Shown here: positions 1,986-57,292 of the stretch, in pieces
Layout: each line of letters begins with the position of its first letter
How positions within the stretch are numbered: position 1 is the stretch's first letter
DNA from: Moorella thermoacetica
Lineage (GTDB): Bacteria; Bacillota; DSM-521; Neomoorellales; Neomoorellaceae
DNA length: 64,000 nucleotides
Reading direction: 5' to 3'
Assembly: GCF_001267405.1 (NCBI RefSeq)
Contig: NZ_CP012369.1
Location: 274,001-338,000, forward strand
The notes under the pieces: generated by a model
Told to the model about the DNA's origin: nothing
Databases searched by the model: none
What the model saw: the letters and a program-made list of their open reading frames with translations, nothing else
Translations under genes and position numbers: made by a program

Positions 1986-2936
1986 TCAAAACCATCCCTT
2001 GCGCCGGAAGAAATAAAGCATCACTCCGGCCAGCAGGGCCATGACTCCCAGGACCACAAAGTACCCGTAGCGCCATTCCAGCTCGGGCATATAACGGAAG
2101 TTCATACCGTAGATGCCGGCAATGAGGCTTAGAGGCATCATGATAGTGGTAATTACCGTCAGCACCTTCATGATTTCATTCAGGCGATTGGAGGTCAGGG
2201 AGAGATAGATCTCCAGGGTGGAGCTGGCCAGATCGTGGAAGGTTTCCACCTGGTCAATGAGGCGCAGCATCTCGTTGTAGATATCCAGGAAAAAGACCCG
2301 GTTTTCCGGTTTTACCAGGTTGAACTCGGGATAGGCCAGGACATTGATGATATCCCGCTGGGCACCTAAAATTTTACGTAGCTTGATGGCCTGGCGGCGC
2401 ATGGTGAAGACCTGGTTTAAAATCCTGCGAGTCGGCTGCCGGAAAACCTCTTCCTCCAGGTACTCAATCCTGGCTTCCGTACGATCAAAAAAGGCAAAAA
2501 AGGTTTCCGTCAGGGGCTCCAGCAGGCTGTATAGGATAAAATCGACACCCTTCGCAAAGAGCCGCGGGTCCTGGCGGTACTGGTGCCAGATTTTATTAAG
2601 GAAATCAAGTTCCTCCTGGTGGACGGTTACTATAAACCCGGGCCCGAGAAAAACGTTAAGGGCCGCAGTCAGGGAGCGCTGGCGAGCCTGGATACAGCGC
2701 AGGGTCAAAAAGGCATATTCATCATACTGGGCCATTCCCGGGCGGTAGTGGGGATGGAGGCAGTCTTTCACGGCCAGAGGGTGAAAATGGAAGAGGTCCG
2801 CCAGGAGGTCCAGTTCTTCCCGGGCCGGCTGTACCAGGTCCAGCCATGTAAACTCCTCGCTCTGCCGGGGCTGGAAACCAGGAGGCAGATTCTCCTTGAG
2901 TCCCTGTTTCGGGTGAAAAATTAAGAGACGCTGCAT
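1986..2936 (-). CDS. corA: CorA family magnesium/divalent cation transporter
   Basis: Pentameric channel for Mg2+ (sometimes Co2+/Ni2+) in the cytoplasmic membrane. The 316-residue protein has the large alpha/beta N-terminal cytosolic domain, long helices around residues 160-250, and two C-terminal membrane segments. The signature GMN lies in IAGIYGMNF at about residue 280, followed by MPELEW, the family's periplasmic loop. The C-terminus RRKGWF is basic, as expected on the cytosolic side. The gene is monocistronic and convergent with eno. No Mg2+ riboswitch is seen upstream of it, although an M-box does occur elsewhere in this window at about 50.1 kb. Confidence 0.95.
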   Translation of the reverse strand: MQRLLIFHPKQGLKENLPPGFQPRQSEEFTWLDLVQPAREELDLLADLFHFHPLAVKDCLHPHYRPGMAQYDEYAFLTLRCIQARQRSLTAALNVFLGPGFIVTVHQEELDFLNKIWHQYRQDPRLFAKGVDFILYSLLEPLTETFFAFFDRTEARIEYLEEEVFRQPTRRILNQVFTMRRQAIKLRKILGAQRDIINVLAYPEFNLVKPENRVFFLDIYNEMLRLIDQVETFHDLASSTLEIYLSLTSNRLNEIMKVLTVITTIMMPLSLIAGIYGMNFRYMPELEWRYGYFVVLGVMALLAGVMLYFFRRKGWF

Positions 2937-35028: not shown

Positions 35029-35130
35029 AGGCTTTAGTGTAAAAGGCAAACCACCTGAAAGGGTGGGACGCAAAGCCATGGGTCTACAGCCGTTACCGGT
35101 ATGACTGCCAGGCTGCCGCTAGTAAAGTCT
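35029..35130 (+). ncRNA. Cyclic di-GMP-I (GEMM) riboswitch aptamer
   Basis: The conserved core is present: GGCAAACC, GAAA tetraloop, GGGTGGGACGCAAAGCC, then GGTCTA and a second hairpin with GGTATGACTGCCAGGCTGCCG, the tetraloop-receptor side. P1 is formed by AGGCTTTA (35029) with TAAAGTCT (35130). It lies 160 bp upstream of a gene with a PilZ-like segment. CCAGGCTGCC (35108-35117) is exactly complementary to GGCAGCCTGG (35152-35161), so the aptamer and the downstream terminator compete. If the aptamer holds the first strand, the terminator forms, which predicts an OFF switch. Confidence 0.92.
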
Positions 35131-50077: not shown

Positions 50078-50106
50078 TTGACACATAAAAAAGGGCTATC
50101 TATAAT
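50078..50106 (+). promoter_or_regulatory. Consensus promoter of the M-box ABC transporter unit
   Basis: TTGACA, a 17-base spacer and TATAAT: a perfect sigma-A promoter, about 28 bp before the M-box. Confidence 0.88.
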
Positions 50107-50133
50107 AATGTAAGAAAACAATCTAAGTGCGCA

Positions 50134-50286
50134 AACCTTCGTTAGGTGAGGCTTCTGCATAGACAGACGCCACTGCCCGGAAACGTCGAAAGACGCCAAT
50201 GGGTCAACAGGTATTACCGGCTTAAGGTTTTACCTAATGTGGCTGAGAAAATTCTCTAGCTATGCACGTGCCAAAGCTCAACGAGT
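50134..50286 (+). ncRNA. M-box (Mg2+) riboswitch
   Basis: Sequence closely follows the M-box (ykoK) consensus: CTTCGTTAGGTGAGGCT, CTGCCC, AAACGTCGAAAGACGCC, AATGGGTCAACAG, CTTAAGGTTTTACCTAATGTGGCTG, and finally GCTATGC...GTGCCAAAGCTCAACGA. A hairpin GGGGG...CCCCC with AGAGT/ACTCT follows at 50286-50335, then GACTTTTTAATT, which could act as a terminator or hide the start region. M-boxes normally switch genes off at high Mg2+. The gene below is an ABC permease rather than MgtE or CorA. Confidence 0.93.
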
Positions 50287-50366
50287 GGGGGTTAATAGAG
50301 TTATTTATTATGACTCTAAGTTTTCCCCCATGGGAAGACTTTTTAATTGGTTGGGAGGTGAGTCCA

Positions 50367-52088
50367 GTGAACCGGGTAACTAACCTGGCCCTGACCATGA
50401 TCATGGCCGCCCTTTTAATTTCCTTCGCATACTTTGCCTATCAGGGCCACAGGGTGCTAACCCTGGCGGGCGGGACGGAGGTCGTTACCAGTATAAGTGT
50501 ACTGCCCTACTACGCGTTCCGGTCTTTCCTGAGGATGCTGGGGGCTTATTTATTATCCCTTATCTTTACCCTGACCTATGGCTATAAAGCCGGTACCGAC
50601 ACCAGGGCGGAACGCTGGCTCATCCCCATCCTGGATATCCTGCAGTCCGTGCCCATCCTGGGCTTCTTTCCGGCGGCGGTCTATTTTTTCGTCTCCCTTT
50701 TCCAGGGCCGGTTGCTGGGAGTTGAACTGGCTTCCATTTTCCTTATCTTCACCAGCCAGGCGTGGAATATGACCTTTGGCTTCTATGAGTCTCTCACCAC
50801 CATTCCCCGTGATCTCCTGGAAGCCACTGTTGCCTACCGGGTAACCGGCTGGCGGCGTTTCCGCACCCTTTACCTGCCGGCCGGTATTCCCAAGCTGGTA
50901 TATAACAGCATTATGTCCTGGGCCGGGGGCTGGTACTTTCTCATTGCCGCTGAGATTATTGCCATCGGCCCGGTTGAGTATTCCCTGCCGGGATTGGGCA
51001 GCTACCTCATACGGACGACAGAAAGGGGCGAGCTGGGCCTGACCATGGTCGGCCTCCTGACCCTGGTAGCTTTGATAACCATGATGAACATCTTTATCTG
51101 GCGTCCCCTGTCTACCTGGGCGGAAAACTTCAAATATGAGTTTGGCAGCGGCGGCAGCAACCGCCTGCCAAGTGGCTTGGGTTACCGCCTCTGGTGGCAG
51201 GCGCCCGGTTTCCGGGAGATCAGGATAGGGGTAATCAAGGGCGGGGCCTTCCTGGGCCGGGCGGTGGGTAACCTTGGTGCCCGTCTGGCCCCTGGGCCGG
51301 AGAAGTGGCAGCGGTGGTGCCGTTATCTCGCCCGGGTCGAGCGCCTGGTAGCCTGGGGGTTAGCCCTGTTGCTGGTCTATGCCCTTGTCCGGGGCCTGCT
51401 AGCTCTGGGCACCCTCTTCCTGGAACCGTGGCAGCCCCAGGTTTTCAGCATCCCGGCGGCTCTCCTGTTTTCCTTCTTTCGGTTGATGGCGGCCTACCTG
51501 TTATCCCTGGCCTGGACTCTGCCGGTGGCTATCTGGATCGGGCATAACGAGCGGGTCTACGAATTCCTGACACCTGTTTTTGAGATCCTGGCATCTGTCC
51601 CCGCCACGGCTCTATTTCCCATTATCGTGTTTGTCCTGATCGGTCTGACGGGGGGCATGAACCTGGCGGCCATCTTACTGGTACTGACGGGTATGCAGTG
51701 GTACCTGCTCTTTAACTTGATTGCCGGGGTGAAAAGCATCCCCGGTGACCTTAAGGAAGCGGCGGCGGCCTTTGGCCTGCGGGGGTGGGGGTACCTGCGC
51801 CGGGTAGTCCTGCCGGCCATGGTTCCCTCTCTGATTACGGGAAGCATCACCGCCTGGGGTGGCGGCTGGAACGCCCTGATAGTAGCCGAATATGTCGTTT
51901 ACGCCGGGCACACCTATACGGCCTTCGGTATTGGCTCCCTGCTCGATATGGCCACCTATGGCAGCGGTAGTTTCCAGGTCATCTGGTCCAGTCTGATTGC
52001 CATGATGGTGACCATTGTTCTCATGAATCGCTTCTTCTGGCGGCGGCTGTATGAAATGGCCGCCCGAAGGTTTAAAATAGAACCCTGA
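50367..52088 (+). CDS. Fused two-domain ABC transporter permease (NitT/TauT-like)
   Basis: 573 residues with two tandem BPD_transp_1 domains, about 12 membrane helices in all. EAA loops: LLEATVAYRVTGWRRFRTLYLPAGIP in the first half and LKEAAAAFGLRGWGYLRRVVLPAMVP in the second. The closest types are the nitrate/sulfonate/bicarbonate permeases (COG0600). GTG 50367 follows GGGAGGTGAG; the reading from 50262 begins inside the M-box and is rejected. It is followed 16 bp later by an ATPase gene, but no substrate-binding protein gene is near. The Mg2+ riboswitch suggests a metal-linked substrate (inference). Confidence 0.9.
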   Translation: MNRVTNLALTMIMAALLISFAYFAYQGHRVLTLAGGTEVVTSISVLPYYAFRSFLRMLGAYLLSLIFTLTYGYKAGTDTRAERWLIPILDILQSVPILGFFPAAVYFFVSLFQGRLLGVELASIFLIFTSQAWNMTFGFYESLTTIPRDLLEATVAYRVTGWRRFRTLYLPAGIPKLVYNSIMSWAGGWYFLIAAEIIAIGPVEYSLPGLGSYLIRTTERGELGLTMVGLLTLVALITMMNIFIWRPLSTWAENFKYEFGSGGSNRLPSGLGYRLWWQAPGFREIRIGVIKGGAFLGRAVGNLGARLAPGPEKWQRWCRYLARVERLVAWGLALLLVYALVRGLLALGTLFLEPWQPQVFSIPAALLFSFFRLMAAYLLSLAWTLPVAIWIGHNERVYEFLTPVFEILASVPATALFPIIVFVLIGLTGGMNLAAILLVLTGMQWYLLFNLIAGVKSIPGDLKEAAAAFGLRGWGYLRRVVLPAMVPSLITGSITAWGGGWNALIVAEYVVYAGHTYTAFGIGSLLDMATYGSGSFQVIWSSLIAMMVTIVLMNRFFWRRLYEMAARRFKIEP

Positions 52089-52104
52089 GGGGGGTGTGAT
52101 AGGC

Positions 52105-52854
52105 ATGGCCTTGCTGGAAGTGAATCATGTCTATAAGACTTATACCGATGCCAACCGCTCGTTGACGGTCCTGGATGATATATCCTTTAGCATTGCCAAG
52201 GGAGAGTTTGTCTGCCTGGTAGGACCTTCGGGTTCCGGCAAGAGTACCCTCCTGCGAATGGTTGTAGGCCTGATCCAGCCCTCCCGGGGAGAGATATTTT
52301 ACCGGGGGCAGCAGGTGAGGGGCGTCATGGATAAAATGGCCATTGTTTTCCAGTCCTTCGCCCTGATGCCCTGGCTGACGGTCATGGGCAACGTGGCCCT
52401 GGGGTTGGAGGCTAAGGGTATCTCCCGGCCGGAGAGGGAAGCCCTGGCCAGCAAATATATTGATAAAGTCGGCCTGGATGGTTTCGAAGAGGCCTACCCT
52501 CGGGAACTATCCGGCGGCATGAAACAGCGGGTGGGTATCGCCCGGGCCCTGACCATGGAACCGGAACTCCTCTGTATGGACGAACCCTTCTCCGCCCTGG
52601 ACGCTTTTACGGCCCAGAACTTGCGGGAGGAGGTCCTGGACCTGTGGCTGGACGTCACCCTCCCGGTCAAGTCGGTCCTTATGGTTACCCACGGCATTGA
52701 GGAAGCCGTCTTTATGGCCGACAGGATAATCGTTCTCTCCCGGAGGCCGGCCCGGGTCCTGGCCGATGTCAGGGTGGACCTGCCCCGGCCGCGGAATATG
52801 AAGGACGAAGCCTTCGCCAGGGTAACGGATAAGATATATTCCCTGCTGTTCTAA
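52105..52854 (+). CDS. ABC transporter ATP-binding protein (NitT/TauT-like)
   Basis: 249 residues: Walker A GPSGSGKSTLLRMV, Q-loop VFQSFALMPWLTVMGNV, signature LSGGMKQRVGIARAL, Walker B LLCMDEPFSALDAFT, H-loop MVTHGIEEAVFMADRI. ATG 52105 follows GGGGGGTGTG. It lacks the C-terminal AAA-associated domain found in some relatives; that domain is encoded separately at 56810. Confidence 0.93.
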   Translation: MALLEVNHVYKTYTDANRSLTVLDDISFSIAKGEFVCLVGPSGSGKSTLLRMVVGLIQPSRGEIFYRGQQVRGVMDKMAIVFQSFALMPWLTVMGNVALGLEAKGISRPEREALASKYIDKVGLDGFEEAYPRELSGGMKQRVGIARALTMEPELLCMDEPFSALDAFTAQNLREEVLDLWLDVTLPVKSVLMVTHGIEEAVFMADRIIVLSRRPARVLADVRVDLPRPRNMKDEAFARVTDKIYSLLF

Positions 52855-56016: not shown

Positions 56017-56226
56017 TTGGACAAGGAGATAATTTTCTTAGTCGAGGAAGCCCCGGAAGGCGGCTATACGGCACGCGCCCTCGGCCACTCCATATTCACG
56101 GAGGGCGAGGCCCTGGACGAAATAAGGAGCAACGTCCGTGACGCGGTCCGCTGCTACTTCGGGGACAAGGACATGCCGCGGGTGATCCGGTTGCACATCA
56201 TGAAAGACGAGGTTATCGCGGTGTGA
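56017..56226 (+). CDS. hicB: HicB-like antitoxin
   Basis: 69 residues with the HicB fold: FLVEEAPEGGYTARALGHSI, FTEGEALDEIRSNVRDAVRCYFG. No DNA-binding tail. TTG 56017 follows GGGAGGG. It overlaps the HicA-like gene by four bases. Small HicB proteins neutralise HicA mRNA interferases. Confidence 0.85.
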   Translation: MDKEIIFLVEEAPEGGYTARALGHSIFTEGEALDEIRSNVRDAVRCYFGDKDMPRVIRLHIMKDEVIAV

Positions 56227-56471
56227 GATTGCCCAGGGACGTGAGCGGGGAAGAATTGGCCGAACTCTTGGCGAGGTACGGGTACCACATAACTAGACAG
56301 ACAGGGAGCCACCTCCGCCTCACCACGACACTAAGAGGAGAGCACCACATTACCGTGCCGCTGCACAGCCCCCTAAAAATCGGAACGCTAAGTGGCATCT
56401 TGGCCGATGTGGCCGATCACATGCAAATTTCCAAAGAAACTTTGGTCAAGGAACTTTTCCACAAGCGGTAA
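56223..56471 (+). CDS. hicA: HicA-like mRNA interferase toxin
   Basis: 82 residues. GEELAELLARYGYHITRQTGSHLRL holds the family's G-S-H catalytic histidine; HHITVPLHSPLKIGTLSGIL follows. GTG 56223, in an antitoxin-first pair. It lies within a run of mobile-element debris. Confidence 0.88.
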   Translation: MRLPRDVSGEELAELLARYGYHITRQTGSHLRLTTTLRGEHHITVPLHSPLKIGTLSGILADVADHMQISKETLVKELFHKR

Positions 56472-56809: not shown

Positions 56810-57292
56810 GTGGATGTTGGACCTCTACCCCAGGTTGGGATAGGGATGGTCGTTGGCCTGCTGGAAATGCTGGAGGATGCCCGGGGGAGGGAAGATATCT
56901 TTAAACTGGCCGGTAGTCTTTCCATGGAACTGGATGATATCGGCCCGGTAATCGAGGCAGCCAGGGTACTGGGGTTTATTGAAACAACTAATGGTGATAT
57001 AACCCTTACCAGGCTTGGCAGTAAGCTCCTGAATGCCGATATAAATGAGCGTAAAGATATAATCGCCGCCAGGCTGCAGGAATTACCGGCTTTTAAAGAA
57101 GTCTTACAGCTGATTAAATCCGGCCGCGGCCGGCAGGTACGGCGGGAGCAGGTTGTACGGCGCTTTGCCCGCAGAATGTCTGACGAGGACGCCGAGGTAC
57201 TCTTTAAAACCGTTGTTGACTGGGGTCGCTTTGCTGAAATCATCGGTTACGATACCAAGGGAGAAGTTTTATATCTCGACGAGGGAGCATAG
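56810..57292 (+). CDS. Stand-alone AAA-associated domain protein, probable ABC transporter partner
   Basis: 160 residues resembling the AAA-associated C-terminal domain (PF09821 type) that is normally fused to NitT/TauT-type ABC ATPases: VGIGMVVGLLEMLEDARGREDIFKLAGSL, ARVLGFIETTNGDITLT, and FKTVVDWGRFAEIIGYD. GTG 56810 follows AGGGGGTC. The ATPase at 52105 lacks this domain, so the two probably act together although about 4 kb apart; inserted DNA between them may explain the gap. Confidence 0.78.
   Translation: MDVGPLPQVGIGMVVGLLEMLEDARGREDIFKLAGSLSMELDDIGPVIEAARVLGFIETTNGDITLTRLGSKLLNADINERKDIIAARLQELPAFKEVLQLIKSGRGRQVRREQVVRRFARRMSDEDAEVLFKTVVDWGRFAEIIGYDTKGEVLYLDEGA

Follow-up and report, generated by a model that had tools for sequence, protein, structure and literature searches.

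What does an M-box riboswitch control when it stands in front of an ABC (ATP-binding cassette) transporter? No divalent ion is more abundant in cells than Mg2+, and the question is raised by a locus of Moorella thermoacetica (NCBI RefSeq assembly GCF_001267405.1) in which an M-box leader precedes a NitT/TauT-like operon consisting of a fused double permease and its ATPase. The locus lies in a stretch of 64,000 nucleotides, here called the window (contig NZ_CP012369.1, positions 274,001 to 338,000, forward strand). An earlier note, made from the letters of the window, had proposed that the operon imports Mg2+ or responds to Mg2+ shortage. Two findings could have spoken directly against that proposal, a leader matching no M-box model or an arrangement peculiar to this genome, and neither was obtained, such that the Mg2+ interpretation is supported, with import itself being what we infer. 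The position of an M-box before an ABC transporter, the recurrence of this pairing in distant bacteria and the presence of Mg2+ transporter genes beside some of the relatives lead us to the view that this is probably an overlooked ATP-driven Mg2+ importer. That the operon specifies a primary-active ABC transporter which imports Mg2+ and is itself under direct feedback from Mg2+ has, in our estimate, a probability of about two in three.

When scanned with cmscan, the leader matched the Rfam M-box (ykoK) model RF00380 with 147.4 bits, against a gathering threshold of 44 (E = 1.7e-33), over the full length of the model (positions 1–169) and with no non-standard pair marked in the alignment, and this is the single match in the whole genome of 2,527,564 bases (2.53 Mb). 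The aptamer lies where the earlier note had placed it, with its limits shifted from 50134–50286 to those given in Table 1. The promoter, which the note had described as perfect, is indeed so, and both of its hexamers can be made out, allowing for one changed letter at most, in 11 of the 12 own-family leaders, L013 not being among those compared (G, L and f numbers are our handles for genomes, loci and families, respectively).

The aptamer is followed by a terminator hairpin, AAGTTTTCCC-CCAT-GGGAAGACTT, with a T tail. A scan for terminator-like sites is in itself weak evidence, yielding seven in a region of 3.2 kb against a mean of 3.6 after shuffling, and the terminator call rests on conservation in relatives. 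Corresponding hairpins made of other bases are present in the leaders of sister genomes, and of 12 further M-box leaders nine have a hairpin with a perfect stem and a T-rich tail, the exceptions being L078, L089 and L146; 3 of 180 mononucleotide shuffles of nine of those leaders gave a hairpin at -8 kcal/mol or better. Folding prediction also yields an antiterminator that competes with this hairpin and couples it to stem P1 of the aptamer; folded in isolation, the segment 50282–50330 that contains the antiterminator reaches a predicted -20.6 kcal/mol, as against -12.2 kcal/mol for the terminator segment. On these predicted energies, the anatomy of the leader suggests a Mg2+ OFF switch acting by transcription termination. 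Translational control, with P1 covering the ribosome site, was dropped, as the terminator precedes the probable ribosome site.

Table 1. Features of the M-box operon and its putative third part (window coordinates)
Feature	Position	Strand	Remarks
Sigma-70-type promoter	50078–50106	+	TTGACA-17-TATAAT, 12/12 consensus positions
M-box (ykoK) Mg2+ riboswitch aptamer	50131–50296	+	RF00380, cmscan 147.4 bits
Predicted antiterminator	50286–50330	+	UGGGGG (3' strand of aptamer P1) would pair with CCCCCA (5' side of terminator), by folding
Intrinsic terminator hairpin and T tail (expression platform)	50318–50344	+	hairpin 50318–50341, 10 pairs, loop of 4
Shine-Dalgarno-like motif	50353–50359	+	GGGAGGT, read from the sequence; same motif in relatives
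Fused double ABC permease, NitT/TauT-like	50367–52088	+	573 aa, likely start GTG, chosen by conservation; PF00528 twice
ABC ATPase	52096–52854	+	start GTG 52096 or ATG 52105; ABC_tran, PF00005
Stand-alone AAA_assoc_C protein	56810–57292	+	PF09821; tandem winged-helix-like units predicted; about 4 kb downstream of the ATPase

The gene order given in the earlier note, a fused double permease and then its ATPase, proved correct. The listed open reading frame (ORF) of the permease opens at 50262, within the aptamer, and starts at ATG 50262 or 50310 were rejected; the protein probably comprises 573 amino acids (aa), because distant family members share the frame only from about GTG 50367, which sits behind GGGAGG. 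It carries two BPD_transp_1 stretches (PF00528, 115.3 bits against a cut-off of 26.4), and an AlphaFold2 model built from a 71-row alignment (mean pLDDT 88) has the Type I importer permease fold with a loop in each half that we take to be of the EAA type. The best fold matches to this model in the PDB are CmpB and NrtB. Ten of the 79 loci L067–L145, being without a usable permease ORF, were left out of an alignment of the permeases. NCBIfam names for the permease were rejected since all of the equivalog models remained below their cut-offs (nitrate TIGR01183, 76.9 against 209.05 bits; SaoP NF040733, 81 against 295 bits). The protein does not belong to the CorA, MgtE, MgtA/B or NrmT families (PF01544, PF01769, TIGR01524 and PF01566), with Pfam giving PF00528 only and NCBIfam ABC permease models only at E <= 0.001. 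The ATPase shares 54% identity with the corresponding half of a fusion protein and is without the C-terminal domain that most of its relatives carry.

The M-box–permease pairing is not confined to this genome but recurs in its own family and in Clostridium, Pelosinus, Lucifera, Paenibacillus and the Chloroflexota. In a set of 61 relatives, the 13 genomes that hold the permease (G041 and 12 of the own family, f1) without exception have an M-box immediately ahead of it. A draw of 398 genomes from the phylum contained 134 with an M-box and 24 with the permease (E <= 1e-45), and in 15 of the latter the M-box is directly upstream by coordinates (11 of f1, G041 and G084 of f23, G190 of f31 and G192 of f93); no M-box was found in the permease genomes G205, G223, G316, G332 and G337 of this draw, and its position in G302 is undecidable at a contig edge. 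Scanning the named GTDB collection with a pattern yielded at least 571 relatives confirmed by tblastn, and the genomes of the best 80 were searched for M-boxes. Thirteen of these genomes have an M-box (12 of 45 under stricter filters and 1 of 35), and in ten it is directly upstream of the permease, the exceptions being L099, L108 and L127. The ten are Thermanaeromonas, Clostridium acidisoli, Clostridium sp. OS1-26, a Ktedonobacteria metagenome-assembled genome (MAG), Pelosinus, a Proteobacteria-labelled MAG that groups with the Ktedonobacteria row in our tree, Lucifera butyrica, two Paenibacillus and an Anaerolineae MAG. Cmscan confirmed nine of the loci; the remaining one, Thermanaeromonas L066, is on the same contig as the own-family genome G014 (labelled Neomoorellaceae), so that nine of the ten constitute new evidence. 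On an 85-row tree the M-box label requires eight changes, at least five of them forced by starred branches, compared with 16.4 for shuffled labels; the tree was made by a quick method with SH-aLRT support only and a warning of long branches meeting, and gains are indistinguishable from losses in it. It includes only some of the f1 genomes, has no row for L058 and leaves L055, L073, L090 and L141 unlabelled, their permease being near a contig edge.

What M-boxes control in general was addressed by a census of the first gene behind 147 of them, 30 from the relatives set and 117 further loci. MgtE follows in 81 cases, CorA in 28, the ABC permease in 16, a P-type ATPase in 12 and Nramp in 2; the other eight comprise two M-boxes that read against mgtE, three without a clear first gene (L194, L258 and L262) and three at contig ends (L028, L232 and L261). 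The gene clusters were named from few representatives (L005, L021, L147, L191 and L228) and close relatives are over-sampled. L006, L012 and L014 (permease) and L247 (P-type) were added by hand, and G330 (contig edge), G050 (borderline, 44.1 bits), G202 (below cut-off) and a second, partial match in G007 were left out. Both P-type representatives tested (L147 and L191) pass the Mg2+-ATPase model TIGR01524. The phylum draw alone places the permease behind 15 of 142 M-boxes examined, 11 of these in the own family; the majority of the remainder are followed by MgtE, CorA, P-type ATPase or Nramp genes. The census agrees with the statement in the earlier note that M-boxes mainly precede MgtE, CorA and P-type ATPase genes, and that statement has to be widened to Nramp-like nrmT genes, NrmT having been recognised as a Mg2+ importer through its M-box (PMC4072509).

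Two arrangements in the census are recorded in their own right. In L025 (G032) and L237 (G149), both of family f14, the M-box transcript would run against an mgtE on the opposite strand, possibly as an antisense-acting M-box, and L237 also has a CorA frame (PF01544) further downstream on the M-box strand. In L228 (G175) and L251 (G377) the M-box precedes an Nramp-like gene, with an ABC permease homologue lacking an M-box on another contig.

Within the own family the cargo of the M-box is exchanged. CorA follows the M-box in G006, G007 and G012, with a leader similar to that of Moorella in the sister genomes G006 and G007, and MgtE follows it in G015; the permease is present in none of these four. 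It does not exclude MgtE, which coexists with it in G004 and G014. The M. thermoacetica genome itself gave no MgtE match and has one CorA gene (window 2001–2858, minus strand) with no M-box nearby, so that it is the ABC operon, rather than CorA, that stands under M-box control.

Genes of Mg2+ transport type also occur beside relatives of the permease. Fetched flanks of up to 5 kb were surveyed at 79 named loci (L067–L145), and eight of them carry such genes: MgtA-type P-type ATPases above the TIGR01524 cut-off in L101, L108 and L133, MgtC in L079 and L108, CorA in L110 and L112, MgtE in L134 and Nramp in L109. As only L109 and L110 have an M-box as well, six of the eight loci are independent of the riboswitch. 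The P-type ATPase neighbour cluster consists of five loci, three of the Mg2+ type and two with KdpB, and the recurrent neighbour clusters beyond the permease and ATPase are mostly those common to near relatives.

Three of these loci illustrate the arrangements. In a Mycolicibacterium cluster (L108, 1447–6581) a Mg2+ P-type ATPase and MgtC are followed by the ABC permease, and the two M-boxes of that genome are elsewhere. In Lucifera butyrica (L109, 2115–4210) the M-box and ABC operon are immediately preceded by an Nramp gene and by a protein of 112 aa that has no Pfam match. In Paenibacillus (L110) a KdpB gene (TIGR01497, 70–2577, minus strand), itself downstream of a c-di-AMP riboswitch (2696–2866, minus strand), is divergent from CorA, the M-box and the ABC permease, an arrangement that puts genes for K+ next to genes for Mg2+.

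The same neighbourhoods bear on the absence of a binding protein, which the earlier note had also stated. Nearest-neighbour Pfam matches were taken from 138 of 144 ORFs at 78 loci, six ORFs overlapping or beside the operon being omitted and L136 having no core ORFs. No substrate-binding protein is among the 25 most frequent of the 105 Pfam families found and none forms a recurrent cluster in the 79 loci, which supports the claim for the neighbourhood but does not prove it genome-wide, given that 80 families are unlisted and whole genomes were not searched for such proteins.

A further component was suspected in the stand-alone gene at 56810, whose product matches PF09821 with 112.3 bits against a gathering threshold of 27.6 (E = 2.8e-32), and the relatives bear this suspicion out. 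The ATPase is fused to a PF09821 domain in G041 (L032), a PF09821-like frame directly follows the ATPase in G017 and G011 of sister genera and, among the loci L067–L145, 69 of 79 have a match to the window protein, which in nearly every case comes straight after the ATPase; of the 69 ATPase frames listed, 48 have a length of 419–492 aa. The ten loci without a match include short contigs and the Burkholderiales-like L102, L103, L105 and L122, in which the domain may be truly missing. PF09821 also follows the permease in occurrence: in the 21 genomes of the relatives set that were searched, each of the ten that hold the permease has a single copy, and the 11 that lack it have none. The 56810 protein accordingly belongs with this transporter, and it looks like a displaced C-terminal part of the ATPase. 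Its predicted model (pLDDT 92) has an order of elements resembling two winged-helix units, and a fold search with it gave no match under E 0.001, the best being at 0.0033 with several weak matches of winged-helix type by their titles. The PF09821 part would then be a regulatory domain of the ATPase. Just upstream of this gene is a small HicA-type toxin gene (PF07927, 41.1 bits; 56223–56471, plus strand), and elsewhere in the window there is a c-di-GMP-I riboswitch (35035–35120, plus strand, 81.6 bits).

These parts can be combined into a working model. At high cytosolic Mg2+ the aptamer would fold, P1 would trap the G-rich strand, and the terminator would form and stop transcription. At low Mg2+ P1 would open and its 3' strand would pair with the 5' arm of the terminator, allowing the permease and ATPase to be made. 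The fused permease would constitute the whole membrane channel, driven by two ATPases, with Mg2+ entering in the absence of a dedicated binding protein. The C-terminal part with its winged-helix-like units, a separate protein in Moorella, would bind to the ATPase in a regulatory role and might close the transporter when Mg2+ is ample, by analogy with the cytosolic domain of MgtE, which does so in that system.

Several observations weigh against Mg2+ as the cargo. The nearest solved relatives of the permease carry anions, NrtB nitrate and CmpB bicarbonate. Eleven of the 15 linked genomes in the phylum draw represent one family, 67 of the best 80 genomes have no M-box match, under filters that for 45 of the 80 lose weak matches, and in the permease genomes G175, G245, G377, L099, L108 and L127 the M-box is elsewhere. 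The figure of eight Mg2+-type loci in 79 is set against a rough guess rather than a matched background, the guess being that, with a few such genes among several thousand, about one or fewer would be expected. K+ systems also occur among the neighbours: KdpB passes its cut-off at L075 and L110, and 2 of the 138 nearest neighbours contain TrkA domains. Finally, with a CorA of its own, M. thermoacetica does not have the ABC system as its sole possible Mg2+ route. The chief alternative draws on some of these points: a true Mg2+ switch might govern the import of some other cargo useful in Mg2+ shortage, such as K+, a polyamine, a Mg-chelating organic acid or another divalent metal. The anion-importer folds and the K+ genes near some relatives would fit with this, as would the two M-boxes of Mycobacterium tuberculosis, which precede rv1535 and, with a small upstream ORF, the pe20 operon, and not a classical transporter, although pe20 and ppe31 are described as needed for Mg2+ uptake (PMC12810186). 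We nevertheless consider another cargo unlikely, for 139 of the 147 census M-boxes precede MgtE, CorA, a P-type ATPase, Nramp or this permease, the permease replaces CorA or MgtE behind the M-box within its own family, and MgtA, MgtC, CorA and MgtE are found among its neighbours.

It is improbable that the aptamer has drifted to another divalent ion, for example Mn2+, which the transporter would then import. A manganese-type M-box class has been named in mycobacteria (PMC12810186) and the same possibility was raised for NrmT, for which the Mg2+ reading prevailed (PMC4072509). The Moorella aptamer, however, matches the full model without non-standard pairs, a similar leader precedes CorA in G006 and G007, and no Mn-specific family appears among the recurrent neighbours or in the partial list of 25 families. 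Similarly improbable is a machine that imports nothing, remodelling lipids or the envelope or serving in signalling under Mg2+ limitation; the lack of a recurring binding protein and the winged-helix-like units of the ATPase could be read in this way, whereas the importer-type fold, with a presumed EAA-type loop in each half, and the functional neighbours seen, which are ion transporters, point to transport. Chance insertion of an M-box with no bearing on the cargo is refuted by the recurrence across lineages, and conservation of leader, promoter and terminator within the family also argues against it, leaving it a negligible probability. ATP-driven import of Mg2+ is thus the reading that we favour for the operon.

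Extended beyond Moorella, it seems reasonably probable that there is a widespread ABC-type Mg2+ importer that combines a fused double permease with an ATPase carrying a winged-helix-like regulatory domain, functions without a binding protein, is linked to M-boxes in Firmicutes and Chloroflexota and also, according to the report discussed below, in Bifidobacterium, and lies near MgtA, MgtC, CorA or MgtE in some other bacteria. Members of this permease family are commonly annotated as transporting nitrate, sulfonate, taurine or anions. If the proposal is correct, a large family (at least 571 relatives confirmed by tblastn) gains a function, and annotations and models will change; a further class of Mg2+ importer will stand beside CorA, MgtE, MgtA/B and NrmT; and there will be an ABC importer of NitT fold for a bare cation which, seemingly devoid of a binding protein, provides a test case for how ABC transporters select a small hydrated cation.

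The earlier note knew of no characterised case and, as to function, this holds for the literature covered. Bacterial Mg2+ importers named in the relevant passages of PMC4072509 include no ABC importer, and the relevant passages of a 2013 regulon survey (PMC3766115) and a 2007 metagenome survey (PMC2211319), supplements aside, name no ABC cargo for ykoK. In the open-access literature, again apart from supplements, we did not find an ABC Mg2+-importer reading, the recurrence across phyla, the Mg2+ neighbours or the third part. The claim fails for the pairing as such: an M-box in the 5' untranslated region of a COG4986 permease and ATPase, Bbr_0406-07, was reported in 2017 for Bifidobacterium breve UCC2003, with the leader in an expressed region, and taken to suggest a role in metal ion homeostasis (PMC5746004). 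The bare M-box–permease pairing is therefore not new.

Compared with the M-box systems of MgtE, CorA and MgtA, such as B. subtilis mgtE, the Moorella operon has the same aptamer family, a terminator-type OFF platform and a transporter gene downstream, whereas its cargo is an ABC permease with an ATPase in place of a channel or P-type ATPase. With the NrtBCD nitrate and CmpBCD bicarbonate importers it shares sequence similarity in the C-terminal half of the permease and similarity of fold; those importers have separate permeases, dedicated binding proteins and anion cargo. Relative to CmpB, the permease family has about five extra residues after a conserved AE motif in the C-terminal half, and the model has a beta hairpin both at this site and at its counterpart in the N-terminal half. 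The ferric importer FbpBC of Thermus thermophilus (9j4r), with a cation as cargo, matches over 539 alignment columns and is therefore probably also a double permease, at 15% identity and a TM-score of 0.52 by query length. The B. breve counterpart bears the label COG4986, which we take to denote a duplicated permease. It has the same riboswitch and, judged by that label, probably the same permease family; the account of it (PMC5746004), in the passages on this locus, offers no survey, claim of Mg2+ import or third domain. NrmT, an unrelated protein family with transport tests behind it, is likewise a case of transporters thought to carry other solutes and revealed by their M-boxes (PMC4072509), and the logic of its discovery is the one followed here: the riboswitch names the cargo.

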